From assembly GCF_037975245.1 (NCBI RefSeq), contig NC_092578.1, positions 15,234,321-15,298,320 of the forward strand: a stretch of 64,000 bases of DNA. The letters run 5' to 3'. A model generated the notes under the pieces. The model saw nothing but the letters and a program-made list of their open reading frames with translations, made no database searches and was not told where the DNA came from. The translations under genes were made by a program, and so were the position numbers. Positions 1,403-58,900 of the stretch are shown here, one piece after another; positions within the stretch are counted from its first letter, which is position 1, and the number at the start of each line of letters is the position of its first letter. The DNA is from Apostichopus japonicus. Lineage: Eukaryota > Echinodermata > Holothuroidea > Aspidochirotida > Stichopodidae.

Positions 1403-2420
1403 TGATTGTATGTCCAAAGGAAGGTCGTAATTCCACTGTAGGCGTTTGTCACCTGTATCGAACAATACTAGTTCTGTTGTGGTGACACACCCTAGAGAAC
1501 AAGCATGATGCTAACCAACTCGAAATCATTTGTGATTCCGAAAGCCGGATCTCAAAGGAGATAGGCCTACTTTGAACAGACTTTTGTTTATGAAATGGAG
1601 GTAAACGACAAAGGCAAATGAATATCACATCATTTGAAATTGTAGTTAGTTGCAAGAACGAATCGAAATGGAAAGTGATTAATCAAGAATGAAATCCCTG
1701 TAAATGACTTTTTTGTTTGTTTTTTATTACAAGTATATACGTAGACAGGCGACAAGGGTAATTGGTTTTCTTTTAATATCATTATTTTTGTAACATTCAT
1801 TGATAGACCACAGCATGACTTTTGGTTTCGAAACGCTGAGTGTGTGTCTGTTTGTGTAGGCTATGTATGTATGAATGTGTGTAGAGGGAAGAGTGTATTC
1901 AAGAATGCAAAGCGGCGCAAAATGGATTATCTGATTGTCGGGAATAATACTCGAGTTTTTAAGTGTTTATTCATTTAACAGGAACATTGTTACACAAAGA
2001 CATGTAAAAGAACCAGAATGCAAAATGCCTTGAGGACTCGAAGAAGTTTAGAAATTAACTTTTCTAATAGAATATTGAACAGCAGTGAAACTACGGTAAA
2101 CGTCAGTTGCAAACAGGGGCGTGGCTAGTCTTCTGCTTTTAGCATTTGGGGGGGGGGGCTATGTTCTACAGAACAAGGAAAAGGTTTTTTTTTGTAACAT
2201 TGGGGCATGTCAAGCCAGCAGCTGACCACTGGCCGATTGAACTCCAATCTTGACCGTCGTCACCTGAATAAAAAGGTCCTGGATAGTCGGGAATCCGCTC
2301 TCAACACCAGTCCCCTTGCATCGAGACTGTGACTTTGTAATAATCGTCAGGTATCTATCACGATTCCCCTAGAAGGGAACATGAGGCAGAGAAGCGATGG
2401 TCAGCAAACGTAGTAGTCAG
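1403..2420. other. intergenic; one isolated hAT-like terminus
   Basis: No gene is seen. At 2114 the sequence CAGGGGCGTGGCTAG followed by a G run resembles the 5' terminus of a hAT-type DNA transposon, but no matching opposite end was found nearby. It is probably a truncated remnant. Confidence 0.35.
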
Positions 2421-2529
2421 GGAGCCTGTCACATATGATTTCACCCCATTTAGCCCAGAAGGTTTGACCCCTTAAAGTTACTTAGACCATCTAGGTCATT
2501 CACAAAAAAATTGTCAGCTCAACCCAAGT

Positions 2530-3524
2530 CATGGGCGGCGATCATGGGGGGGACGGGGGGGACATGTCCCCCCCCCAATGTTTTAGGTGGGGGGATATAG
2601 TATCTAATATCCCCCCCAATATTTGGTGGCATACTTTTTTTTTAGCATATTTTTTGTATTTTTTTCATGATATCGCTAGAAATTTCAAAATAGAAAATGC
2701 TTAGATGCAACTTACAAGGCCTGGGAAGTGCCATTTCCTGCGATCTGGGAAGCATTTTCGGGCAAAATTTTCTTTTGCGCTTCGCGCCTGTCTAACCGTG
2801 TCACAATTTGTTACTTTATATGACCGAAAGCTAGACGGACCGCATCCGTAATGAAAGGGGGCCGAAGGATGGAATACGCCCCCTCGAGCATATTTTTTTT
2901 TATGATATCGAAGTTTTATAGTAGCCGTTATAAGAGGTTTTAATATTTTTACACCAATAAATTAACTGTGCCTGAGTTTTCGAAAATTCGTTGACCAACA
3001 TTCTTTACCATACTTCCCTCTACTCGTGCAATATTAACCGGTCTGTTAGGGGTTGAAGGGGGTTTTTCTATATTGGTTGTCCATAGATGAAATTTTGTGC
3101 AACATTATGGGTATGTTTTTGAGTGAATTTATTATTCAAATTCTGAACAAGTAATGGGCTTCAAACCTTGAAAAGTGGGGCTGACGGGTATTGTGGGGCG
3201 TTACGTAGAATATCTTACAAAAGCAATGATCCACAGGGGATGCGATGAGGTCGAACATGATGTATGACTGCTGACAATCTTGAAAAAGGTTATGAATGAA
3301 AAAAACTATTGGGAAAAGCTTGGTTCTCAGGCAAAAGTGTACATCTGGTTGGTCATTTTCAAGCCCGAGAAGTGCCATTTCCGGTGATCTGGGGGCTATC
3401 AAAACCAGAAATTTTCTTGTACGCTGCGCGCCAACCAATGGTGGCGCTCCGCTTAGATAGTAATTTGCCTGCGCACAAGCAAATGTCCCCCCCCCCCAAT
3501 ATTTGAAACAAATCGCCGCCCCTG
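2530..3524. mobile_element. hAT-like non-autonomous transposon nested in the foldback left arm
   Basis: Terminal inverted repeats are CATGGGCGGCGATC at 2530 and, read from the right end inward, CAGGGGCGGCGATT. The element is flanked by a perfect 8-bp duplication ACCCAAGT (2522-2529 and 3525-3532), the target length typical of hAT transposons. Removing the element and one duplication copy restores a sequence that matches the uninterrupted right arm of the foldback element near 7740-7800. No transposase frame is seen. Internal sequence near 3000-3470 is an inverted relative of 8750-9290, and the part near 2690-2810 is an inverted relative of 9990-10085. Poly-G and poly-C runs lie just inside both termini. 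Confidence 0.85.
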
Positions 3525-3580
3525 ACCCAAGTGGTTGGGTTTGGACCCCAGACCCCCTGCAAAAGACCCCCCGGACGGGT

Positions 3581-4490
3581 TAATTTCACTCCATCTAGCC
3601 CATGGACCAAACTTTGTCAGAAGGAAGTAGTATGGCTGTACATTACAAAAAAGGCAAAACTGACAAAATTCCTGGTCGGGATTAAGGGGTTGTCAGACCC
3701 CCCACTAAGTCACACCCAGTCGGGTTGATTTCACCCATTTAGCCCATGGACCAAACTTTGTCAAAAGGAAGTAGTATGGATGTACATTACAAAAAGTGTA
3801 AAACTGACAAAATTCCCAGTCGGGAAGGTGTTGTCAGACCCCCACAAAGGTCACCCTCACCCAACCCCCAAACGGCGGGTTGATTTCACCCCATCTAGCC
3901 CAAAGACCAAATTTTGTCAAAAGAAGGTAGTATGTCTGTACATTAAAAAAAAGGAAAATCTTACAAAACTGCTGGTCGGGAAGGCGTTGTCAGACTCCCA
4001 CAAAGATTACCCTGACCCACCCCCCAAAAGGCGGGTTGATTTCACCCCATCGAGCCCATGGACCAAACTTTGTCAAAAGGAAGTAGTATGGATGTACATT
4101 ACAAAAAGTGTAAAACTGACAAATTTCCCTGTCGGGAAGGTGTTGTTAGACCCCCCACAAAGGTCACCCTCACCCAACCCCCCAACCCCAAAGGCGGGTT
4201 GATTTCACCCCATCTAGCCCATGGACCAAACTTTGTCAAAAGGAAGAAGTACGGTATGAATGTTCATTACTAAAAGTGTAAAACTGACAAAATTCCCAGT
4301 CGGGAAGGTGTTGTCAGACCCCCACAAAGGTCACCCTCACCCACCCCCAAAAGACGGGTTGATTTCGCCCCATCTAGCCCATAGTTCAAATTTTGTCAAA
4401 AGAAGGTAGTATGTCTGTACATTAATAAAAAGGAAAATCTGACAAAATTGCTGGTCGGGAAGGGGTTGTCAGACCCATACAAAAAGCCCC
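3581..4490 (+). repeat. tandem units of the foldback left arm (six copies)
   Basis: Units begin with a TGATTTCACCCCAT-type sequence near 3581, 3725, 3880, 4037, 4200 and 4360, giving periods of 144-163 bp. Apparent reading frames here repeat the same peptide and are by-products of the tandem structure. Confidence 0.85.
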
Positions 4491-5588
4491 TACCCAGTGT
4501 CTTTTACCCATGAACTGAGATGATAAAAATATAAACATAATTATTTACAAAAATAAATAATTAATGATCATATTGATGAGAGGAGATATTCTATGTAATA
4601 TAAAAGAGCCTTTAATGTCCATTATGGTTTGCCTTTCTAAATTGCTTCATCTTTTTGGGTGACAAGGGGTCCAAAGTTGCTAGGCAAGGAAGTGACTGTA
4701 ACATAATTTGATTTTTTTTTTTTTGCTATAGCATCTAAGTAAAAAATATGGGTAGGCATCCCTGGCTTATAAACAAACTGATGTAGATGAGAATCTTGTG
4801 GGAGGAGTTTCTCCTGCCTTTTGCTGGAAATGTTTTAATTTATAAGACAAGACAAAGACCCTCTTTGTCTTATGTCTGTACTACAACCTCCACATCCTGT
4901 TATGTGACCATAGTTGGTCCTCCACTTTCACCAAATTTCTCTATTCCCACATTCTCTTATGGTTCTGTTCTTGTGAAGTGAAGGTTGTATATGATTAAGT
5001 CAGATTTAAGCAGTTAAATGTAAGGGCATATCCCCAAAATATTGTGAGTTATACCTAAAGGCAGCAGATTGTATTTGTTTCCCCCTCCCATTCATTTATA
5101 TATAATACTCATAATTCCTTCGCAAAATTCATGTTAAATTTTGATAGTAATTTTCTTTTTTTGGGGGGGGGGGCAGAAAATTGTTTGTTGTATTCATGTA
5201 AAACATAAGACCTGCTTTAATTAATGGCCTGCAACCCAGTTATCTGCTTAGTCCCATAATATATGGTGTTACAGCAGAAGTGGAACAAAAAAATATTGGG
5301 GACCCTTTAGCATATTAGATATCGTTAGGAACATTCTTCTAATTTCTGAAGCCTTTTCAAATAGTTATAGATATGCCAGGTATATAATTGGTTAATCAAA
5401 GAAGTTATTTGGGGGAGGCTTGGCCACTCAATTATATTATTGAAGCTGCCCCCCCCCCTCTCCTGCTTCAGCTGCTTTTGTGTTATGAATGCATACTTTC
5501 CTTGTGCAATTGTTTTCATTTTTGGTGTTTCCTTAAATATATCTATATATATATATCTATATATATATCTATATATATATATATATAG

Positions 5589-5623
<35 letters not shown>

Positions 5624-6961
5624 CTACGGGTTAGATTTCTAGTAGCTCACATTGCAACCAATAATTAAGTACTCATATTGTAACTTTTTAAACCTACAAT
5701 TGGTAACATGCCAGTTTAAAAATTATTTGGTTAAAATCAAGGAATATTTACAAAATCTGGAAGTTTAATTTGATTCACATCATGGGTGAAAAGGCAGTAT
5801 TTTCCTCTTCAAATAACAGTATTGGTAATTATGTGTCTTGTGTTAATTTCCAATGAGGTACCTATGGTGAATGCCAGTTTAATTAGTTACTTACTCTGTG
5901 AACATTTTGTTAAACGTTTTCCATTTCTGTTGAAATATTTAAAAAGAATCTTGCAGATTATCTGCAATTTGCCAAGAAATTCAAAAATACATCGCTGATT
6001 TGATCCTTAGACTTTAATACCATTTTGATTGTTTTAATCTTAACATAAAATCCACTTGACATAATGAAATGTAACGGCTACTTTGAGTTATTTTGAACAT
6101 TTATTTTTATATCTAATAATTTTCACATTTTGAACCCAAATTTGGCAAAACTATCTTGCTCGGGGCTTCATAACGGCGGTTTATTTGTCGAAAATCCTGT
6201 AACTGGTAAGCTTTACCTTAGCAATTTGTTTTCAAATCACACTACTTAGAATACTTGCAGAAGAGGTGGATCGATAAGATGGACACAACAGAATTATGCA
6301 AGTGACGTGATGGTGAACAATGACAGAGACGTACTGTATCATAGGAACTAATCAAAAAGACAATATAGACTTTTAAGAATAACCATTTGTATTTTAAAAC
6401 CTTTAAATCGCATTGTGCCCAATAACAGAAGGGCCTTAAAACTGAGTGAGGCCACATTCGCCATGTTTGTTCAAATGCAATGTTTGGTGGGGTTCTAGCT
6501 GTAACTATTTCCTCTTTTGTGGATGGTTTTCCTAAATTAAACTTACCCGTTCTTGTTATTATAGTTTTCCATGACTGTTTGTCATATTGATGACACAAGT
6601 GTGGTAATTGCCAGTCCAAACATTCATGTTGAACAAGCAAATTTATTTTACCAACATGAACTGGGGCTGGTGCTGTTGAAAAGCATGTTGTTATTTTCTA
6701 CATTTTTCATGCAAAGGTATCTGCTTTACAAGTGTAAAAACTTTCCATATTTAACATTTGTTCCTGGTTCCACATGTATGTATTTCATGCTTTTACAGTA
6801 TACGTTACACAAATACAAAAGTGGCCCATGTGACAATAATGGGCACATCTTTGCTTTCAGACCATTTGGTAAGTTTTTCCATGTTTTATAGTACAATGTC
6901 TTGCATACTTTTTTAAACAAAATTCTGGTCTATGATCAGATTGCGTGAATTGAATTGGCTG
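4491..6961. other. spacer between the foldback arms
   Basis: AT-rich single-copy sequence with a (TA)n microsatellite at about 5536-5622. It contains a candidate exon on the minus strand (described separately) but no transposase that I can recognise. Confidence 0.5.
6547..6672 (-). CDS. candidate orphan exon inside the foldback spacer
   Basis: On the minus strand a frame from 6672 to 6547 reads like real protein (PAPVHVGKINLLVQHECLDW and onward, ending SWKTIITRTG). It is bounded by a possible acceptor (TTTTCAACAG) and a strong donor (CGG|GTAAGT). It would add 2 + 123 + 1 bases, an ordinary phase pattern. I do not recognise the family and cannot confidently assign neighbouring exons. A frame continues past the donor to 6242, but its lower part looks like random read-through. 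It may be an exon captured by the element or chance. Confidence 0.27.
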
Positions 6962-7740
6962 GGTGGGGGAACCTTGTGGGGGTCTGGCAACCCATTCCCG
7001 ACCAGCAATTTTGTCAGATTTTCCTTTATTTTAATGTACAGACATACTACTTCCTTTCGACAAAGTTTAGTCTGTGGGCTAGATGGGGTGAAATTTACCC
7101 GCCTTTTGGGGGGTGGGTGAGGGTGACCTTTGTGGGAGTCTGACAACACCTTCCCGACCAGCAATTTTGTCAGTTTTACACTTTTAGTAATGAACATCCA
7201 TACTACTTCTTTTTGACAAAGTTTGGTCCATGGGCTAGATGGGGTGAAATCAACCCGCCTTTTGGGGGGGGGTGGGTGAGGGTGACCTTTGTGGGGGTCT
7301 GACAACACCTTCCCGACTGGGAATTTTGTCAGTTTTACACTTTTTGTAATGTACATCCATACTACTTCCTTTTGACAAAGTTTGGTCCATGGGCTAGATG
7401 GTGTGAAATCAACCCGCCTTTTGGGGGTGGGTAAAGGTAAACTTTGTGGGGGTCTGACAACGCCTTCCCGACCAACAAGTTTGTCAGTTTTTCCATTTTT
7501 GTAGCATACCGCCATGCTACTTCCTTTTGCTAAAGTTTGGTCCATGGGCTAGATGGGGTGAAATCAACCCGACTGGGTGTGACTTAGTGGGGGGTCTGAC
7601 AACCCCTTCCCGACCAGGAATTTTGTCAGTTTTGCCTTTTTTGTAATGTACAGCCATACTACTTCCTTCTGACAAAGTTTGGTCCATGGGCTAGATAGGG
7701 TGAAATTGACCCGTTCGGGGGGTCTTTTGCAGGGGGTCTG
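6962..7740 (-). repeat. tandem units of the foldback right arm (five copies)
   Basis: Inverted counterpart of 3581-4490. GGGGTGAAA-type landmarks occur near 7085, 7241, 7400, 7555 and 7697. The array has one unit fewer than the left arm, suggesting unit loss or gain after the arms formed. Confidence 0.82.
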
Positions 7741-7866
7741 GGGTCCAAACCCGACCACTGGGGTTGAGCTGACAATTTTTTTGTGAATGACCTAGATGGT
7801 CTAAGTAACTTTAAGGGGTCAAACCGTCTGGGCTAAATGGGGTGAAATCATATGTGACAGGCTCTT

Positions 7867-8511
7867 GGCCTATATAGGATAGCAGAGTGAGGTCGCTTTC
7901 TATTTCGACAAATGCATAACAGCATGTAATCAATGGTTTGGTATCCTTTTCACAATATTTTGGTGGCAAGACTGCATGGTCGAATCGTTAGGGATAGAGA
8001 AACACAAAGAAGGTTTTGACCATTTTAAGATGCATGTAAGGGGACATTTTCCCTTTTCCTTGTTATGTTTATACTAAATGGTATACTTCCTATATTTTTT
8101 ATCTTATTTGGTTAAAACTGTTTAAAAGGAATAAACATTTTTATCGAGCGACTTGAAAATCTATAACGTAATATCTCACATAAACAGGATTAATACATAC
8201 AGAATAAATAATGATAGAGAAAAACGATTTTATGATTTATGATTTTTAATTTTATTTAATTTTCACATGTTTTACAATTTCAGACTTTCTATAGCTCGTC
8301 AGTTCGTGAAATTTACTGCATTTTTAGCACTTAGCATAGAATACTTTCAGCGTGTATCATTTTCTTCAACTTTAAGAATTTTCATTATCATTGCATAGGG
8401 AATATCAACATTTTTCTTGGTTAATCTCCGCTTTGATGTCGCCCCTTTCCATCAAAGCTCCATCCCGCCCCGCCCCACCCCTCCCCCGCCCCAAGTCTGA
8501 TATTTGTTTCT
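7867..8511. other. 3' flank of the coiled-coil gene
   Basis: AT-rich sequence between the foldback element and the stop codon at 8512-8514. The lower part probably includes the 3' untranslated region of the coiled-coil gene. No reading frame is convincing. Confidence 0.45.
8251..8256 (-). promoter_or_regulatory. candidate polyadenylation signal AATAAA
   Basis: The minus strand reads AATAAA about 255 bases past the stop codon of the coiled-coil gene, a normal 3'-UTR distance. AT-rich context makes chance occurrence possible. Confidence 0.4.
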
Positions 8512-11500
8512 TTAAGTACTTTCATAAGCCATGATCTCCTCCTGTAGATCTCTGTTATCTTTCTCGATTTCATCCATTTGCTTCCGCATCCTCTCCATCT
8601 TCTTCGTTTTCTCTTTAACCTTCATCCTGTAAATGGAAGATAATAAACCGACTATATTGGAGCAAAAAAACAAAAACAAAAAACAAAAAAATATATATAT
8701 ATATATATCAGGCGCGTATCCAGGATTTTCTAACCCGGGGGGCGCGAATTACTATCTAAGCGGAGCGCCACCATCGGTTGGCGCGGAGCGTACAAGAAAA
8801 TTTCTGGTTTTGATACCCCCCAGATCACCGGAAATGGCACTTCTCGGGCTTGAAAATGAGCAACCAGATGTACACTTTTGCCTGAGAACCAAGTATTTCC
8901 CAAAAGTTTTTTCCATCCATAACCTTTTTGAAGATTGTCACCAGTCACACATCATGTTCGACCTGATTGCATGTCCTATGGATGATTGCTTTTGTAGGTT
9001 ATTCTACGTCACGGCCCACAATATCCGAAAGCCCCACTTTTCAAGGTTTTAAGCCTATTACTTGTTGAGAATTTGAAAATTCACTTTTCTCGTGAATAAA
9101 ATCACTTCAAAACATACCCATAATGTTGCACAAAATTCAATCTATAGACAACCAATATAGAAAAACCTCCTTGAACCCCTAACAGACAGGTCAAAATTGA
9201 ACGAGTAGAGGAAAGTATGATGAAGAATGTTGGTGAGGAAATTTTCGAAAATTCAGACAGAGTTAATTTCTTGGTGTAGAAATATTAAAACCTCTTATAA
9301 TGGCTTTTACAAAACTTGGTTGAAGGAACAGAAAATAGCAGATATTTCCGATATCAGGTATATCGAAACCGAACACTTCACTCATAGGCGTAGGTCCCGT
9401 AGGAGGCGGGGGCTGCAGCCCCCCCCCTCCCCCCAATTGTTTTCCCATTTTTTTCGGGCACCTACTGAAAGAAAAATAAATAGCAATGAATAGCTTAAAA
9501 TTATCTCCTTGGTAATTTAAATAAAGTTGTAAGCTTGGCCGACATTACTACTGTAAAAGAGAGTTTTGACATAAATGGATCTGTATGGTTTTTCTCCATC
9601 TACATAAGACATTTGGTTGTTTACATTAGCATCCGGCGGTATACTGTGCAACTTTCACGGACCGTGCGGTACACGATGCCATACAATGTAATGACCGATC
9701 TTGCCTATATGATATTGGCATCGACATGTTGAATGCGCGCGAAGCGCGCGAAAGATTTTGACTTTTTTTTTCGGGCAAGTCATTACAGCCCCCAAATCCA
9801 ATCTGGCTCCTACGCCTTTGACTACACACATTGACAGTTTTTGAGGCTGTTCATCGTGGAACATGCATTTCAATGCTCATTGATATGATGTTATATTTGC
9901 TCTTTGCTTTACAAATTCGAACAGGCGTGTAGCGAGTAATTGCCAAGGGAGGGCGAAGCCTGTAGGCAAACTATGAGTTGGCGCGAAGCGCACAAGAAAA
10001 ATTTTGGCCGAAAATGCCTCCCAGATCGCTGGAAATGACACTTCCCAGGCCTTGTAAGTTGCATCTAAGCATTGTCTATTTTGAAATTACTAGCCATGTC
10101 ATAAAGAAAATTAGCTCGGGGGGCGGTCTCCCCCTTCCCGAAATGCGTTATGTTTCCCGACGACGCGGTCGAGTTCAAGTACATTAGTGAGAGAGGAAAA
10201 ATGGAAACGTCAAAAATGGAGTTGTCGGGGTAAGGGGTAGGGTGAGGCGCACACCCCCTCCGTAATCCTTGATCTGTCACTGGCTACCCTGTGTATATAA
10301 TAGGGATCTTTCTCTTCCCGAGGTCTTGGCTATCTTCTACTCCCTCCTTTTCTCCTTTTTCTCTCTTTTTTCTTTTTCTTTTCCCTTCTTTCCTCTCCTC
10401 CTTTTCTTTTTTCCCCTCCTTTTCCCTTTTTTCTTCTCTTTTCTTTCTCTCCTCTTTCCTTACCCGGGGGGCGCGCGCCCCCAACGTCCCCCCTGGATAC
10501 GCACCTGTATATATATTAATCAGTTTTGTACACAGACACAGACACCCATAATAATATATATACTCTGTCATTCTTAGTTGAACGGGACGCACATAAGCCC
10601 AGGTTATCGCCAGATATATATATTTCTAGATTGCTTGGACGTGGTTTTTGATGTAACCTGCGTACAAGCTTTTCAAAGATGGTAACATTGAAATATAAGT
10701 CTACTCTTACGGGTATTCTGGATTCACGGAGTCCTCAGAGGAAAACACACACATACACAAATCGATAGGGTTTTATATTACCAGTTAGTTTAACCCAAAA
10801 TTAATCAGTTAACCGGTTTGCAAGAAAGAAAATTTAATGGGTCACCAAACATTCCCTTCCTCTAACTACAAGATTTTTACAAAATATTTTGTATAACGTC
10901 AAACCTGTTACGTAAATTTCATGAATACTTACTCTGCTTTGTCTAGCTCACTGAGCAGAGCTGTGACGTCACTCTCACGATCCGCCAAATCACGGCTAAT
11001 CCTTTTGAATTCTTCCTCCCTCTCCGTGACGATCGCCTGTAACCTTTCCATTTCCTGCTCGTTCCACATATTTTTCTTTTTCATTTGTATGAAATTCATT
11101 TTTGCATGAGTCTTAACACGCTCCGCTTCTTTTAGCTGCATAGCTCTATGCATCGCGTGAACATCGTTTTTCCTCATCGATGAAGCTTGATGAATCCATT
11201 GCTGCAATTCTCTCTCCAACTTATCCTTACTTCTAACAAGTTCACTATTTTCTTTCTTGAGCTGTATCAAATCATTGTTAGTTTTGTATAAGTCTTTCTT
11301 CAACCAACGAATCAACGATCTCATCTCCTCCTGCTCCTTGGTCTTCTCATTCAGTTCTCCTTTCAGTTGCGTCACTCTGACGTCACGATCAGCTTGTACG
11401 TCATTATCTGAAAAAAGACCCTTGTCTCGCTTCAATGTTAACAACCCATCAGTCTTCACATGCATCCTGTGTTTCATTTTATCGTATTGTTGCCTAAGAT

Positions 11501-25200: not shown

Positions 25201-28200
25201 GCACTTCATGTAACTGGAAATTAAATACCTGTTGAGCATGTGGATGGTGTGCAATTGTTGCAGCAGCTGTTGCATGTCCAGCAGGGCCAGGGACCAGCTG
25301 AAGAGGATCCCCCGGATTGAAGTAAGCTACTCCATTATGGTATGTATAACTGTATGTACCTGCAGGTGACTGGAGGATCATCCCATTTGGTAAATAGGTT
25401 GTTTCTATTCAGAACAAGAAATAAAATGAACAAAATTAGTGTCTTCAAGTACTTCCAAGAGGGCTGAAAACTAACAACTTTTCTTTATCCCTTTTTTTTC
25501 TCCAGGTAATGAAAAACCTGGTTTTCTCTCCAAAGTACTAGGCCTTACCGAGATTTATGTGGTTACAACCAGTTGGCTGGTCCTAATTGTGGAGTTATTA
25601 ACCCATTCAGTCCAATATAGAACATTTTAATATAATTTCTTTCTTTTTCATTTTACTAACATAAATTTTTTATCCATGATGTGATTTCTGTGGACGTAAG
25701 TAAAAAATTGTTTACAAGTACTGTGGTCTTTCCTTTAACAGTCTAGTATGGAACCACAACATTGTAGTAGACATCCAGCTTAACATTTTGAAAATGGAGA
25801 GACCCTTATTAGACTTTCTAACACATTTGTGGGAATCAGTACCAACTTTTACTAACAATGATACTGTGTGAACTTTAGTATTACTTTTATCAGATGAAGA
25901 ACACCTACACCATGGAGCTTGTCATATATTTTGCTAAGCTGCTCTAGGGGGCCACTATGACAACGGCCACTACTTTTAACCACATTGTCCTTCACAAGTG
26001 GGCCACTATAACAGCAGACACTATGTGCCATTTCTTCCTTCAAGTCCCCAATTTCTCTCCTATGGAAATAGCTGGATATATCTACCAGTAGGACATTTCA
26101 AATCTAAGGTTACCAACTTGCCACCAATTAAATGTAGTTCATTTCTCCAAATTTATGTGTGAAATTTATGTGTTAATAAATAATAATGTATGGTACGAGT
26201 TGTAAACAGGACCTTTTAGTGACAAAAGTTATATTAAAAGATGACTTTAGGCACAACATTAACATGATATATATTAGACTAAAATGCACTGCTACCATTC
26301 CAGGTTGTATTTCTAAACCACTTTTCTGGGACATGACCCTTACAGTTATGAGGCTCACCAATTAAAGTAGCAGGATTTTTCAGTCTAGCACAATGAAGAT
26401 CAGGCCAGTTCCTCAGATGCAACACCAAACATAATACTTTAATGTCTCCAAATAATATAATACAACATAATAAAATATGACATTATATAATATTTGCCAC
26501 GCAAAAGTGAAGTAGTATGTCTTCCAAGGATGCTAGTTGAAAACCTGCATCTGAGGAACTGACCTCACCATCAATTGGGCCTCAAAGGAGCATTCCAGAC
26601 AATTTAGCGTATATATCTTGAAAAACTGAATAGCTCTACAGAAACATCGGATCACCCACATGGTTGCGTTTTGTTGGACTAAGACAAGGCCAACATCTAT
26701 CCTTTAGAAAGTTAAAGTTCTACCCCAAACACATGGTGTCGACATAGATATCATTAATCTAACAAGTGAAACTCAATGTAGCCTACATGTGTCGTAATTC
26801 CCACCAAACATTATAAATAGCGACACAAAATTAAATTAAGGTTAAACTCACCTTGTTCTTTGGGATATCTTGTTGGCTATGAGAAGAGAATAAATATTTG
26901 GCAAATTAGTTACAATTTAAGAATATTAATAGGATAGTTTGTGGTGAATTCTGCTTGAGGAAGAGGAACCAGGGTCCCTATAAACCTACATGTACTGTTT
27001 TTGAGATGAATTTTGATGGTTATAATTGTCAGTTTAAAACATACGTGAACTGAACCAAACCAGTGTGATGTCATTGTTGCACACTGGTATTCACAAGACA
27101 ATGTTTTTTTTTCCACTTAAATAGTTGGATAGAGTTCAATCCTTTACCCTAGGCTTAACCAGATGTCGACTACTCAAAATGCCAACCTCTGTGGTATAGT
27201 AACGTGATGCATCCCAAAGTAGAAAAGTCAGAGCCAAATATCGATGAGAGATGAAAATCAGTCTTGTCAATGTTCGTGTTATCACCCTCTGTTTGTTCCA
27301 CATTCACTTTTGTTACAAAATTTACCAACTAAAATTACTTCAAAGTCAAAAATAAGTTACCAATGGACGATCCTTTTCAAGTATGATTATGCATTTCGAG
27401 CATACATGGAAATGAATGTGTATAAAAAGAGAACAAGCATTAAAATTTTGAGTGCGTCTATACTTTTGGAGTGATTTCCTGTATAAAGTTTAAATGCAAT
27501 CCTTAATGTATTGCTGTTAAGACCGCACAGGCCTTAAACTTTGAGGTTCTTAATATTGTCATAAAATGTCAAAAATTCATATAAGGCCTTTACACATGTG
27601 CATAGGCGTAGGAGCCTAATTTGATTTGGGGGGGCTGTAACGACTTGCCCGAAAAATGTAACCGAAATTTTTCGCGCACTCTGCGCGCTCAACATCTTAA
27701 TGTGCATATCATATAGGCATTGATCGGTTATTTCATCACATGCCAATAGCCGATGAATGCCTATATGGTATGCACACTAAGATGTTGAACGCGCGCGTAG
27801 CGCGCGAAAAATTTTGGTTATATTTTTTGTGTTATTACCCTTCTATATTGGTTAGAATTATTGGTGCCCGAAAATTCTCAGCATAGTGCCTGAATTTTCA
27901 CAAAAAAAATTGAAAAACACATTGCAAATTATTCTGCTCTCAGTAGGTGCCCGAAAAATTCTCAGCATATTGCCAGAATTTTCACAAAAAAAATTGAAAA
28001 ACACACTGCAGATTTTTCTTCTTTCAGTAGGTGCCCGAAAAATTCTCAGCATATTGCCAAAATTTTCACAAAAAATTTTGGTTGGGGGGGCTGCAGCTCC
28101 CCCGCCTCCTACGCCTATGCACATGTGCAAAGTAATACACTTCAACACGGGTCTAAATGCACTGTAATCTAAAGCTGAAAAGCTCTTAATACTAGAGTCT

Positions 28201-45529: not shown

Positions 45530-46309
45530 CATGGGCGGCGATCCGTACTTGCGAGTGGGGGGATATGACCTTGTTGACTATCTAAGCGTAGCGCCACCAT
45601 GAGTTGGTAGCGTACAAGAAAATTTGGGGATTTATAAACCCTCTAGATGGCCGGAAACGGCACTTCCCAAGGTTTCCAAGCGGCATATACCCCACTTTAA
45701 AATAGGGATATCATGTCCGAAATATCTCATAATCAGGATCCAAAATAGTTTTTTTTTTTTATTTCGGGTGTTAATTTGGGAAAATTGCCCGTCAATCTTG
45801 TTTCAGGCGCTACGTTAGAATGTTCGAGAGCTCTTTTATATTATTCGATGAAGAAAATGGCCTCATGCAGGCTATTGTAGGCCTATACACATGCAATACA
45901 CAATTACACATAGTTACATTCCTAGGTACCGATTGCTAGGGCATCCAGGTGAAACGTGTATTAAGCATTACCCTGGTAACATGAGATTCTCAGCTGTTCG
46001 AGGGAACATGTATTGTACGTGTGTAGGCCTACTATAGGGCCTATATGAATACTATGAGGGTGCATATATGTTCTATATCAATACCGTGATAAAGATAAAG
46101 ACGGTTTATTTGAAAAGATCGCACTGCGTTAATGGTAGGCGAGAAATGAAGCTAAAAAAGAGCCGTACATTCACGATGATGCATAAATGTAGGCATGAAA
46201 ATATTCTTATCCCTGGCATTTGGTGGGGGGGGATATGGTGTATTACATCCCCTCCACCCATTTTCATGGGGGGATATATCCCCCTTCCCCCCCAGGATCG
46301 CCGCCCATG
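45530..46309. mobile_element. hAT-like MITE, same family as 2530-3524
   Basis: Perfect terminal inverted repeats CATGGGCGGCGATC are flanked by a perfect 8-bp duplication TGATTAGC (45522-45529 and 46310-46317). The interior shares the segment with GCGCCACCATGAGTTGG and GCACTTCCCAAGG with the elements at 2530 and 8710. G and C runs lie inside both ends. No transposase frame is present. Confidence 0.88.
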
Positions 46310-49540: not shown

Positions 49541-49912
49541 CTACGTTTCACTCAGAGTCACGTAGACTTGTTTTTGGTCCCATATCTTCGGCTGCAACGT
49601 GCACGGTACGGATAGATACATAAACGGCTCCACTCTCTTGTATCTTAATTCCTTACATTCGTAGACGGGGCAGTCGTAGGTCGTGTCCGATTTTATCAGA
49701 GTACCCGACATAGGTCTGAAATGCTTATGAACTGGTTTAACCCACATCAACGGCAGTTTAACCCGAAGGGACCCTGCGTCGGGGGCACCATCTCTCGAGT
49801 GCGGTACCATGGTGACACGGTGGTGATCCCAAGATGCATTGTGAAGATAAAATCCAGAGACGTACACTCCCGCCTCTGGTGGTTGAGATGGAGGATCTTT
49901 GAAGGGCATTGT
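49541..49912 (-). CDS. dynein-like last exon
   Basis: Starts after CTGTTTCTAG and encodes the dynein C-terminal beta-barrel text: GVYVSGFYLHNASWD, LPLMWVKPV, YDCPVYECKELRY, ending VYVTLSET. Its order and spacing match the canonical GLFLEGARWD, PxxxxxP and CPVYKTxxR motifs. The stop is at 49543-49541. Confidence 0.88.
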   Translation of the reverse strand, partial: TMPFKDPPSQPPEAGVYVSGFYLHNASWDHHRVTMVPHSRDGAPDAGSLRVKLPLMWVKPVHKHFRPMSGTLIKSDTTYDCPVYECKELRYKRVEPFMYLSVPCTLQPKIWDQKQVYVTLSET

Positions 49913-52900
49913 CTAGAAACAGGAGAAAATACACATCAATCAATTGTCTTAAAGATTATTCTTCAATTGAGTTATTTATTTATTATGTAGCAAACCATGA
50001 AATAAAATTAGAATAAGTGTCCTATAACAATGAATACCTGTGTGGTCCTCTGGAACATGACTATGAATTATAAAGTCAGTATTTATATTTGTAAATCCTG
50101 ACCAAAGAATCACTGATACCTATTCTATCAGTCAAGATTATCTCAGTTATTAACTGTTTGAACAGATTAATACCAAAAACTTAGTATCCCCAAAAAAATT
50201 AATGCGAAATTTACTTCCTTCATTTACAAACTTCAAGTCCAGGCATAATTTTCTGTTTCTGATGTGATTATCAGTGGGGTGAAATAGCAATTAATTTGAA
50301 CAAAAAATATAACAAACCAAAAAAAAAGTAGCATTGTGTTCCTTTAATGTTCAAATGAGGTGCTATGGGTAGATTTAAAGGTTGACTTTAGACACAAGGT
50401 TAATTTTCATATTTTTGGAGAACATTAAGAAAAGAAAAAAACACTGCTATTAGTCTAGGTTATGTTTCTATATTGCTTTTTAATTTTTGAGAAATGACCC
50501 TTTTAAAATCTGGAGTTCATCATTAGAGCGGCTGGTATACTTAGTCTAACTTAATAGGAAAATATAACAATTTTACAGCTTCAAAATAACACGTTTATGA
50601 TGTACGACAAATTCTTCAAAAACAAATGTTGTTGAATGTCATCCCAAAGGTCATTCATATGAAATTTATATAGGAAATTTAGAAGAACATGTTTTGATTG
50701 AGTTATTAGAGTTTATAAAACAATGGATTAACATTAGCATCTAGACATGCCACTATGGAGCTGAAAGCCTCAACAATTTGACTTTAAAGGAGCATTCTGG
50801 TGGTTAAGCATATTTGTAAGGTGAAGATCTTGAAAATGATAAAAACTACAGGAAAAAAACATAACACTCAAAGTCTGTATTCACCCCCTTTAACTATGAT
50901 ACATCAATACTAAAATTCTTCCTAAATTCATCTTTTACAATAATTTCATTTTCTAAGATTTAATGCATTTGGAATTTTTGTCTCCCTCTTCCATTTACCT
51001 GAACTTCCATGGTTACATCTTGCACCTCCATATATTCTCTCCTGGCCTGCTCCATCAACAGAGCTTTCAAAAACCTCTTTGGTCGCAAAAACGCCGCAAT
51101 CTCGTAACAGACGACAGCTTTTTCATTCTTCCGGTAACTCCGAAGTAACTCCATCTTTTGGATCGACTCTTCTACCAACTGTTCCGCTCTTAGGCCATCC
51201 CTCGCCCCGGGGTATCCCCACCCCTGGGGATAACTGTCGCGAGAAATGGCCTGAAAAACGGTCTCCAATTTCGAGTTCAGATAGATTTGACCGTCGAGAG
51301 CCTTGCCTAGCAGTTCTAAGTCTGACATGATTAATTTGAGTTTCTCGGAGAGAAGTTGAATTTCCGAGTTGACAAAGCTGTCGACGTGACTGAGATTGTC
51401 GGTGTAGGGTTGATCCGAGGGATCATCGACTTCACAGAGCTTAGCGTACATGGATGAGATTTTACTCCTCTCGGAGTCGAATTCCCTAGGAGACTCGAGA
51501 TGCGGTTCGAGCTCGAGGTGGATCAGACTGGTTAACAGGAATCTGAAGGAGACAAAAAATAATATAAAATTAAATTAAAATATAAGTAGAGTTTAATTAA
51601 AAATTAATACTTAGGTAATGGACTAATATGAAATCAACATTTTCATGGTATTGCAACAAAATTTGTGATTTCATTATCAGGTGGATCACTTACTATGGAT
51701 GTACAATAGCATTTGTAATTTTTAGACTTGAATTTCACACCAAACTTGCAATATATTTAATAAACATAAACCTAAAACATCCTGCCATTGTAAGACTGTA
51801 TGTAGATAAGTAATGTCGTGGAATTCTTCTCTGTACATCTTTATGCTTTGTTCTGTCGTAATTATTGATTCCCCCGAGATAGCTTTCCAGCTTTTGTACA
51901 TTAGTTTTCACATTTTAGAAATTTATCAAGTTATTATTATTATTATTAATCTATAGGTATTGTCTTTATTGTTGTTATGGTTATGATTATTGTTCTTATT
52001 CTTATTCAAACCCATTTTCAAAATATGCTAAACTGACCCCAAAAGTGGTCACCAAAAGTCAAATTTGTCGACTTCTTTTAATGCCAAATATAGGCGCAAT
52101 AACTATAAATGGCATTCAAGAATATTTAAATCGCGATTTAAAAATGAACAATAAATGATAAAAAAGGGAAAAACCCCAAAGATGAAGTCCACAATACCTG
52201 CTCTGCCGTCTCTCGATGATGGCAGGAGCAATCTTCGTCAATCCAAGATGTAAAGGATCAATGTTTTCCTTCATCGAATCAAACATCAGCTGGAAGGCTG
52301 CTCTCTGATTCGCTGGTTTAGTAGTCGACCTCGTCGTGCTTTGAGACGGGTAGAGTAAAGACCCCAGCAAGCTACCTACACCCATGGAGGAGGGCAATTG
52401 CTAAAATGAAAGGAAAAAACATTTTGTTTCGGCATTTATTGCCTTATTGGTTCTATATATTTAATATTTAGGTTTTACATTTGTAAAGCGCTTTGAGCAG
52501 CTTTGCTGATTATGCGCTATACAAATATTACTTATTATTATTAATATTATTATTTAGTCAAAGAATAGCATTACCGGCTAAGCTGAATATGAGCTCTCAC
52601 TAGATGGAAATTTCTGAAACCATGGACCTATACATAGAAATGACACAGGATGTAGGAGAACCCAACGGTTAGATCTAAGGCCAAAATTAGTCACAAGAAA
52701 AAGCATCCCCTCCACCCCAGTGGTGGACCTACAATAATTGGCACCCGAGGCGGATCCTTACTCTGTCACCCCATCCAGGGCATATCCAACCTGGGGGAGG
52801 GGTCTAAGGGGAGGGGGGTGTCTGATAAATTGTGAGGTGGCTTAAATGCAAACTGGTGCTATCTTTAGCAAAGCTTTGAACTGAATTCACCATGATTTGT

Positions 52901-55900
52901 TTTAACTTTTACTCCACTACTTAAAATGAAACTTCTGTTTTGGTCAGGTTGATCACCTTATATGGGATCTAAGCAAGGAGCAGCATTAGAAACATTTATC
53001 AAAAATTGGTTGTAATGCTGTCCCAACAAAGGGATCATAGAACTGAATTTAGCTATTACAATACCTGGACATCTCTCCATGGGATTAGCACGCTCTCGGC
53101 CAAAGATTTAATCGTCTCTAAGTCTTCGGGGTTGCTGGCACGGCCGCCATAAATGTGAGTTCCCACCATCTCGACGAAACTTGAGAAGTCTCTTAAAGGT
53201 ATGGTACTGCTCGAGGTGACCAGGTAATCTAGAGCTGAGTACAAATCCTTTTCATCCCTAAAATATTAAAAATTAAAAAGTATGAAGGTACACTTAAAAA
53301 GTTTCTTGAACAAAGCATCGGTTGAATTTTGTAAGATCAAGAAAACTTTGAAATTTTATGATAACAAATTTATTAGGTTTTCTCAACAATATTCTCACTT
53401 TTTATTCAAGAAACTGCAAACTAAAGGTTATGAAAAAAATGTCAGTAATGGGATCATAAATTGAGCAGTTCTGCTGAGAATAATTTCTGAGGTTTGCGAA
53501 CATTAAAATGAATCAAAGGTTGACTTGTGTTGGAGGGACTCCTAAAAATGGCAATGTAAACGTACTGAACATTATTTACTGCAAAGTCTAAACATAGTCC
53601 ACACTCATCTTAAGAAATTAATTGTAACAAATATCACTTTTAATTAACTATTAACTACTTAACTATTAACTAGTTTGCATGACTGAGGACTCAATCACAA
53701 GGGTAATGTTTTCTGCAACAAATTTTAATAATTTCACAGCAACTTTAAATGAATCCACATAAAGTATAAGCGATAGTGTGATAAGTCTCGCCCTATTATG
53801 TCACCAAAAAAAATGCTTGTGGTTTGATCTATCCTTAAATAAATTCTTTTATACTCTTTTAAAGAATGTTATTTAATGAAATGAAGGCCAAGCTGAATAT
53901 TGTAATTCTACCCTACAGGGAACAGTGACATTTCTAAAAGTAGACTTAATGCAGATTAAAAGAAAACAATAACAACAATGTACTCACAAACAAATCTTTC
54001 AAGAAATGTCACATTTACTGTCACAAGAAATGTCACATTTACTGCAAAAATTTGGTAAATCTCAATAACTTTACAGTAAGGTATTCCATTAATACGTTAA
54101 CAGTGTAAAGACTAGATTCATGATATGTGTACTTTTTTTTGGTTTTCTTTGCAATTCTGAAAAGACTCACCAATAGTAATCTGTTTTAAATCCAAGTCCT
54201 GGATAATGAAGCCGTTGAGAGAGAATGGTGTGGAAGAAGGCCAGGCTGAATGTCATCTCATGAAGGAACTAGAGGAATAATAAATCAATTGAATAGGTGA
54301 AAAAATGTAAAATATTTTCAAGAATATTACATAGTATTGTAGCATAGAAATAAAATATTTATAGAATAGAATATTATACAATAGAATGGAAAGAAATAGA
54401 TTACACATTATAGAGTAGAATTTGTAATGGTATTATAGAATGTTATAGACTAAAATATTACACAATAGCATGGAAAACAATAGATAAGATTAATGAAGAA
54501 TAGAATGTTATATAATAGAATGGAAAACAGATAAGAATAATAAAGAATACAATATTATACAATATAATGGAAAACAGATAAGAATAATAAAGAATAGAAT
54601 ATTATACAATAGAATGGAAAACAGATAAGAATAATAAAGAATAGAATATTATACAATAGAATGGAAAACAGATAAGAATAATAAAGAAGAGAATATTATA
54701 CAATAGAATGGAAAACAGATAAGAATAATAAAGAAGAGAATATTATACAATAGAATGGAAAACAGATAAGAATAATAAAGAATAGAATATTATACAATAG
54801 AATGGAAAACAGATAAGAATAATAAAGAATAGAATATTATCCAATAGAATGGAAAACAGATAAGAATAATAAAGAAGAGAATATTATACAATAGAATGGA
54901 AAACAGATAAGAATAATAAAGAATAGAATATTATCCAATAGAATGGAAAACAGATAAGAATAATAAAGAATAGAATATTATACAATAGAATGGAAAACAG
55001 ATAAGAATAATAAAGAATAGAATATTATACAATAGAATGGAAAACAGATAAGAATAATAAAGAAGAGAATATTATACAATAGAATGGAAAACAGATAAGA
55101 ATAATAAAGAATAGAATATTATACAATAGAATGGAAAACAGATAAGAATAATAAAGAATAGAATATTATCCAATAGAATGGAAAACAGATAAGAATAATA
55201 AAGAAGAGAATATTATACAATAGAATGGAAAACAGATAAGAATAATAAAGAATAGAATATTATAGAATACAATGGAAGACAAAAGTTTAGAAAAATAAAG
55301 AATAGAATATTATAGAATAGAATTGATGAGGGTAGGTTGGAGAATTCTAGAATATTCTAGATTATGATAATATAGAAAAGCATTTACTAAAAACACTAAC
55401 CTTAAATTACATTAAATAATCTAACACAAAGGAAGGTCCTTAAATACTCTCAATGGTTAAACCTTGAAAACAGTTCCGATTCAAGCAATGTGTTTAAACA
55501 GGATTTAAGGATGAGATTCCAACATTGTAGCTGTTTTTCTGCCTTATTTGTGAGACAGAACACAACAATCAATCTCGATTTTGAGATGTTGGAGGTCCAA
55601 CAATAATTAACAGTCGAACAACCCCTTACTGCTATGACTTGAGTCAAAATGTCTTGAATTTGTCATTAACTTTGCAAACATTTAACTACCATTGGAATAC
55701 CAAAGGTACTCCTGTTTGCTATTTGTCATTGCTATGTATACATTTCTAGGCTTCATTCCTGCTGTAGATTCAAAACTCAATCTTGACTTGCACTGCAACA
55801 GACAAAAGCCAGTAATATTCATGTTGCAGTCAACCATCATATTTGTTTAAATATTATTTTATCATTATATCTTTGCAAAGTCATTTGGATTTTGGTTTCC

Positions 55901-58900
55901 TCTCTGTTCCAGTTTGGTCTCTACTCTGTTATTTAAGGGCAAAATAAAAGATGACCTTTCTTAAGTATGACATACCTTAGTGTTGCTAGCTGGAATTCTA
56001 ACTTGTTCTGACTCTAGCCGTGAGTTGGCTAGATTGAAGTAAAACTGAAGAGTAGACTTGAAGCTGTCTGAGAAAGAGCAAGACCTCTTCACACTGTGTT
56101 GCAGGATCAAACCTAATGAGAGAAATAATAGTTGAGAAAAGGAATAAAAACAGAGAATACACGAAAAAGAAGAAAAAACCCCATAGAAATTCAGACAAAT
56201 AACTCATAAAAGGAACAGATATTTTTGGTACATTCAAGGGAAGAATATGTATATATTTTTGGCGATGGGGGGGGGGAGTGGGACATGTGACCTATAATAA
56301 TACATATGTAAACAATTTTAAGGTCTATTGGATCCACTCCTTGTAAAATTATCTGACTAGATATGAGCCATTGATTCCTTGCTTCTATAATATCGATGTG
56401 GAAAACGTATAGTTATGGAAATTAATTCAAAACTGTTTAACATCAGAATATCAGTGACTCCTGCCATGCCCGACTTGTTAAAACACTGGTTTACGATATT
56501 CCAAGAGCTGATTGAGTTTCATAAAGCGACACGCATCTCCCAGTTTTTCAAGCGCATGTTACAAAATAGTCATTTCAATCAAATGGAAAAATGAGCAATA
56601 AATTGGAAAAAAATTATTACAATTTAGATATTTGGAATCCCATTTTAACCATGAAGTTCTTTGTCTCTTTTTCATTATTTATAATTTCCCAGTCAGTTGT
56701 CTTTTGTTCTTATGTACTTACATAATTATATATGAACGGTCAAATTTGTCTTGAAATCCCTGCCCATTCTTTCTGGTGTTGCATCAAATGAAACCAGGGT
56801 ATTATGATCCCTGGTTAATACTGTATGGTATGCAAGGTACTGTGGCTTCCGACTGGCGCCCCTAGGAAAGGAAATGCCTATATAGGGATCGCCACCAACT
56901 AAGCCCTGGATAGCTCAGTTGGAAGAGCCCTTGGCTTGTAACCCCAGAGGTCACTGGTTTGAATCCCCCTCCTACCCATTACTTTCTCTGCTCTTTTCCA
57001 TTGCTTAGCATTGTCCCAGTCAGTTTTCTGTTGTTTGTTTACTTATGAGTTAGAGTTGTGTGTAAAAAAGGTCTATAACTTACCAGGGAGGTTATTGGCA
57101 TTATCGGCATCCACAACCATGAAGAGGCGGAAGTTATCGTGGATGGGTGGTCTGGAGATGAAATGACCCTCCCTGCTGTTTCCAGGACTACCGCCATCGG
57201 AATTATCTTCTTCACTAGATGTTTCCAACAGGAGCTGTAGATAAAATCATAAAAAAATATAAATATTAAATTTTGAAAGTAGACCAAAGCTGACCAGTCG
57301 TTAATCTGACAAATTTGCTATTATTCAGAAGCAGCTATTTGGGTACTACGTAATTAAGCATGTAACTATTTATAAAATTAAGTCTGTAGCTTTTATCAAT
57401 GACTCTGCTGAACAAACCTCTCAACTTGGGTATACACACCAGTGGCTCTATCATCAATTACAAACCTTGTTCAAACACCCAGTGGCTTGGTGCAGTGATT
57501 AGCATAAAAACCTGGTTCAGGCACCAAGTCAAAAGTGGGAAGCTGAGGGGGCTGCAGCATAGTGCAGCCAAGCTGCAGAGGACATAATCCTTTCTGCTCT
57601 GCAGTTCGCACTATGGGCACTGCTAAGTCTGCCACGATAATTTCTATTGTTTTATAATTATTCAGCCTAGCTGCAGGGGATTTTGCAGCTGATGCAGCTT
57701 GTCTTTCACACAGCAGTGATTATTTACAGAACCTGCTATAGAAACCAGTGGCTCCTTTCAAGGGCTATCATGAAATTTGTTTTAAGATACACAGGTGCCT
57801 CCACCCAATGGTTATTATGAAAGTTTAGTTTTGCACACAAGTGTTTATTTGCAGAACTTATTGAAGAAATGATTGGCTCCATCAAAATGGTTAATTATGA
57901 AACTTGCTAAATCATGGCTCCATCCACAATTATCACAGACCCAGAATTTACTAAGAATGATCATTTCTTTATATATTTTTTGGGGTATAATTTGAATAAT
58001 ACTTCACCTTCAACTCATTCATGAAATGCTCGTCCCATTTTTCCACAGCTTGACAATTTTCCAGCAACAGCCAATGTCCTCTCGACTGACAGAGTTTCAA
58101 TAGCCTCGTTGCTTCCTTCAACTGCTCTGTGGTTCCAAGGGTCACCTTGTGGAAGTTCTTCTCCAGACCAGAATGGATGGATAATTTCTCAATCTCCTCT
58201 GTTGGGTTCACCGTGAAGTTACCTTCATTTCGAGAGAAAAACAAAAAGCAGACATTTATTTCTTTTCTCTGAATACATCTACTGATAAATCGCCATATAA
58301 AATAATAGAATAACGGTAAGATTTCCTTATCTGTGACTATTTCAAAGAGCAGGTCCACAGCTCTGGAATAGTCTTCCTTTACATTTCAAAAACAATTCCA
58401 GGATTTGTCAACTTTTCAGAAGTGACTCAAGTAATTTTTATATGTAAATGATTATCCCAGCTTGTAAACTCATGTTTTGATAACTTTTATGTTTCTTTCA
58501 CTGTGTACCTTGCTTCTACATTGCTTTCTGAGCAGTCTCCAACTGGATATTCATAGTTCATAAATTTCATAAATTTCATAAAATTCATAAATTTCATAAA
58601 ATTCATAAAATTCATAAAAATTATAAAATTCATAAAAAGGGAGAAATAATTATCACCCATGGACTGTTTAATAAGATACCTTCTATGCCAGATAATGAAT
58701 GGTCCTGTTCTGTGTAGTTGAATCCAGGCAGAAGACAGAGAAGTGGCTTCCTTGGGCCTAAAATTGGCAACATGTTACCCAGGGAGAGATGGCCAGGGTT
58801 ACTAACAGATGACCCCAGTTGATAAATGGTAACGTCGTGACAGATACTGGCAACCTGGGAAACATAATCATGAGAAAATCAAGTTGAATCTGACACAAAC

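Follow-up and report, generated by a model that had tools for sequence, protein, structure and literature searches.

Elements of the hAT type are described as being 2.5–5 kb long, with short terminal inverted repeats of 10–25 bp and an 8-bp target-site duplication (PMC3942097). The same source reports 24 short BuT2-related sequences of 532–927 bp in Drosophila willistoni. Here we describe a 995-bp insert found in a 64-kb stretch of the Apostichopus japonicus genome, the whole of which was analysed and is referred to as the window. The insert is like the BuT2-related elements in having short inverted ends, an 8-bp duplication, no coding capacity found and a length of less than 1 kb, and its likeness to a relative (here the element at 45530–46309) similarly lies mainly in the outer parts. 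It is unlike them in that a segment at 8744–10111, differing in its outer sequence, matches its interior at 87–91%.

The insert lies within a larger inverted repeat, the organization of which recalls that of foldback elements. Tetris of Drosophila virilis has long inverted arms with tandem units and a middle region without a recognised protein, as does the host repeat here, but differs from it in carrying TIR-220 repeats rather than units of ~156 bp, and in having 8–10-bp duplications where none is seen here (PMC4079207). Galileo is also a foldback element with tandem repeats in its inverted arms. The TU foldback elements of sea urchins share the inverted arms with tandem repeats, and are probably set apart from the host repeat by the length of the repeat.

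The insert and its empty site

The locus is very probably the product of a cut-and-paste insertion, in which a short non-autonomous hAT-like DNA transposon entered an inverted repeat that was already in place, in the outer part of its left arm. Two observations are decisive for insertion, namely an empty site in the opposite arm and a second copy of the element at 45530–46309; the coordinates of all of these features are listed in Table 1.

Table 1. Features of the insert, its host repeat and its relatives within the window.
Feature	Position	Strand	Remarks
hAT-like non-autonomous element	2530..3524	+	995 bp; ends CATGGGCGGCGAT and (reverse complement) CAGGGGCGGCGAT
Target-site duplication ACCCAAGT, left copy	2522..2529		
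Target-site duplication ACCCAAGT, right copy	3525..3532		
Host inverted repeat, left arm including insert (inner end approximate)	2422..4490	+	six tandem units from 3574 on
Middle region between host arms (borders approximate)	4491..6961		no Pfam family in tested pieces
Host inverted repeat, right arm (inner end approximate)	6962..7864	-	five tandem units; no insert trace above chance
Empty site, 120 bp, with the 8-bp site in single copy (ACCCCAGT)	7697..7816	-	114/120 match to joined flanks
Relative of the insert's interior, outer sequence different	8744..10111	-	87% over 574, 91% over 132 aligned columns
Further element sharing the insert's ends, exact 8-bp duplication TGATTAGC	45530..46309	-	ends 12/12 to each other

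The terminal inverted repeats of the insert agree at 11 of their first 12 bases, and an exact 8-bp ACCCAAGT flanks it on either side, in keeping with an earlier sequence-only reading that had proposed a hAT-like insertion with inverted ends and an 8-bp duplication. That reading had the element extend from 2530 to 3532; the start is correct, and the end is moved to 3524, since 3525–3532 is the right copy of the duplication.

The chance occurrence of such a combination was gauged by scanning the window for exact 8-bp repeats separated by 200–1500 bp that enclose inverted ends matching at 9 or more of 12 positions, leaving out 8-mers and ends with fewer than three kinds of base. Of the 14 rows returned, three have 11 or 12 of 12 matching bases (2530–3524, 45530–46309 and 27601–28119), nine come from one repetitive stretch at 54.4–55.3 kb, and the two others have 9/12. 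Thirty first-order Markov resamplings of the window gave 29 rows in total, with 11/12 or better in one of the 30 and 12/12 in none; as one resampled window in 30 reaches 11/12, ends and duplication alone are suggestive and inconclusive for the 995-bp insert. Across both strands of the window, the exact core GGGCGGCGAT is present four times, once at each end of 2530–3524 and of 45530–46309. The repetitive stretch (54371–55313) is contained in a low-GC region with an excess of G and A; GC is 0.265 over 54001–56000.

The right arm preserves the site in its insert-free form. When 2421–2529 plus 3533–4490 is aligned with the reverse complement of 6962–7866, as the sequence-only reading had suggested, the junction is crossed without a gap, as predicted; gaps occur farther inward, and 806 of the 900 aligned bases are identical overall. 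The single mismatch within the 8-bp site (ACCCAAGT versus ACCCCAGT) is an A/C difference, which we considered as a date for the insert and dropped, since it could equally well reflect a subsequent substitution on the right-arm side. With a junction probe of 60 + 60 bp, the right arm gives 114/120, compared with 85 and 75 for the probe's own halves and 57/120 for the next site in the window.

The extent of the insertion was examined by scoring every single deletion of 900–1099 bp with its left cut at 2480–2579, over 240 bases, against the right arm. A length of 1003 bp (995 + 8) is the unique best, yielding a gap-free 233/240 and leaving one 8-bp copy, with the runner-up length at 160/240, and the proposal that the opposite arm retains the empty site is thus upheld. 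Nine equivalent joins tie at 233/240, every one of them inside the 8-bp duplication. By itself the empty site thus places the termini with a tolerance of eight bases, and it is the inverted ends that single out 2530–3524. The termini are therefore defined without an outside reference, as had been claimed, in that the empty site narrows the choice, the inverted ends make it, and 45530–46309 concurs. We also looked for the contrary outcome, in which the right arm would carry remnants of the insert or no single junction would emerge; neither was seen, the search of 3533–7900 for insert remnants giving five matches with a best E of 0.15, which is chance level, and the deletion scan giving the single 1003-bp optimum.

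Structure of the host repeat and relative timing of the insertion

The host has long inverted arms holding internal tandem repeats, as foldback elements do, with units of about 156 bp whose start-to-start spacing is 145–163 bp in the left arm and 142–159 bp in the right arm. The flanking duplication, which is 8–10 bp in Tetris, was not found: exact repeats flanking the entire inverted repeat were sought while each boundary was allowed to move by up to 12 bases, and the longest encountered were two of 4 bp. This is not above chance, as 425 of 483 random position pairs have a flanking repeat of at least 4 bp (500 pairs were drawn, and those too near the end of the window were dropped). The sequence-only reading had called the host a foldback, and its arm anatomy agrees with this; its status as a transposon does not follow, with no duplication above chance and no protein family in the tested pieces, and we use 'foldback transposon' provisionally, as a descriptive name.

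Open frames run through the arm repeats at 3729–4202 (157 aa) and 6913–7548 (211 aa). They were considered as a gene and rejected as probably not being one, the tested pieces having no Pfam match. Unit spacing in multiples of three can let a stop-free unit hold a frame open, which is a partial explanation, as six of nine spacings are divisible by three when taken from the repeat search and three of nine when taken from motif spacing.

Similarity between the arms is uneven. Their outer 257 aligned bases have seven differences, and the outermost units, L1 and R1, differ at 4 of 142 positions, whereas the innermost, L6 and R5, differ at 29 of 154 (Fisher p about 9e-6). Moreover, L2 is far closer to R3 (5/155 differ) than to R2 (24/154). 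The unequal number of the ~156-bp units and their pattern of similarity suggest that units have probably been gained, lost or exchanged between the arms, and with outer arms so alike and innermost units so divergent, a single, simple history does not account for both arms.

These observations bear on the order of events, which the sequence-only reading had regarded as fixed, with the foldback first and the hAT-like element later. From the empty site it follows that the insertion postdates the last copy that the two outer arms had in common, and this part of the claim stands; as a strict proof it does not, given the uneven divergence of the arms. Since the repeat could have been assembled from separate copies, or its outer arms homogenized by later gene conversion, we infer how the insertion stands in time to the repeat's first assembly, and consider it likely that the whole inverted repeat was already present at insertion. 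Exchange between arms presupposes that both are there and would favour the foldback-first order; assembly from separate copies would not.

Such an assembly is unlikely. The insert would have pre-existed in one of two single-arm copies, and a filled and an empty copy would later have been joined head to head, which would agree with an inverted repeat that has no target-site duplication above chance, with six units in one arm and five in the other, and with the 29 differences between the innermost units. The outer arms, however, differ at just 7 of 257 bases, and independent copies would have to match this well there and much less inside.

Assignment of the insert and its relatives

Stop-to-stop frames of at least 50 aa around 2300–10300 number 60, and 16 of these were run against Pfam, including all nine that overlap the insert. 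Nothing was found at E up to 1 for any of the nine frames, nor at the same threshold for seven further pieces from the host arms and middle; a left-arm piece and a piece of the middle region, run in addition, likewise had no match at E up to 0.01. Its 995 bp, set against the 2.5–5 kb described for hAT elements, points to a non-autonomous element, and the insert is best read as a hAT-like one moved in trans. The end type, CAKGGGCGGCG, resembles what we take to be hAT ends, and the term hAT-like refers here solely to this end type and to the duplication length. Both features are seen twice, with exact 8-bp duplications at the insert (ACCCAAGT) and at 45530–46309 (TGATTAGC), and with short inverted ends matching at 11/12 and 12/12, respectively.

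Duplications of 8 bp can also be produced by other superfamilies, and the insert could belong to one of these, which we regard as decidedly unlikely. No transposase is tied to the insert, Pfam having returned nothing for its nine frames, and the three loci that combine an exact 8-bp duplication with good ends have target sites that deviate from the consensus assumed for hAT elements; against this, the CAKGGGCGGCG ends are presumably of hAT type. The duplication length and the short ends are likewise those given for hAT elements in the source noted above (PMC3942097).

Two elements only, of 995 and 780 bp, have insert-type ends within the 64 kb. The likeness of the shorter one, at 45530–46309, to the insert is chiefly in the outer parts, with 75% identity over 89 and 79% over 94 aligned columns. 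Another hAT-like element, at 27601–28119, is flanked by an exact 8-bp duplication, CACATGTG, and has different ends (CATAGGCGTAGG, 12/12); repeated stretches in both direct and inverted orientation occur inside it.

The interior of the insert has its own relationships. It contains two direct copies of a ~70-base stretch (2719–2788 and 3363–3432, ~75% alike), and this stretch likewise occurs twice in the relative at 8744–10111. The pieces of this relative that match the insert's interior are at 8744–9317 and 9980–10111. Between them is a related element at 9383–9820, with ends CATAGGCGTAGG / CAAAGGCGTAGG and a candidate decayed 8-bp duplication (ACTTCACT / ACTACACA, 6/8), and from this position it is probably nested in the relative. 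The whole interior-sharing segment may span 8709–10291, and its outer sequence, which starts CAGGCGCGTATCCAGGATT at 8709, adjoins an AT microsatellite; it possibly represents a different set of ends on an interior common with the insert.

Other features of the window include a tRNA-Tyr with anticodon ata at 1330–1403 on the minus strand, predicted by ARAGORN, which may represent a tRNA gene or else a repeat derived from a tRNA. Pieces of a dynein heavy chain (two matches to Pfam Dynein_C and one to Dynein_heavy) are spread over 49544–58358, also on the minus strand, and are probably exons of one gene.

Proposed course of the insertion and its significance

In the cut-and-paste insertion that we favour, a transposase supplied from another locus would have recognised and bound the CAKGGGCGGCGAT ends, and the cuts in the target would have been staggered by 8 bp; gap filling by the host's repair machinery would then generate the ACCCAAGT observed on both sides. 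The right arm would never have been filled, and would have kept the pre-insertion site in the insert-free form seen there. That both arms were once filled, with the right arm losing its insert through excision or through repair copied from an empty sequence, is extremely improbable: sequence exchange is possible between inverted arms and the uneven arm similarity would fit it, but in the right arm the 8-bp site is single, the junction carries no added bases and insert remnants do not rise above chance, and hAT excision usually leaves a footprint.

The type of event is ordinary, as a case of nested DNA transposons in a eukaryote, and nested insertions whose empty sites can be recognised are commonplace. 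The locus provides exact end definitions for one hAT-like family of the Apostichopus japonicus genome together with a clean within-locus empty site, and these are useful for annotation and relative dating, with no general view altered. The uneven similarity of the arms is the less routine point, and could aid the study of gene conversion in inverted repeats. It is very improbable that the host repeat represents an unnamed foldback-type family that moves without a target-site duplication and exchanges its ~156-bp units between arms; were this so, the hAT-like insert, present in one arm, would be a marker for the reach of inter-arm exchange.
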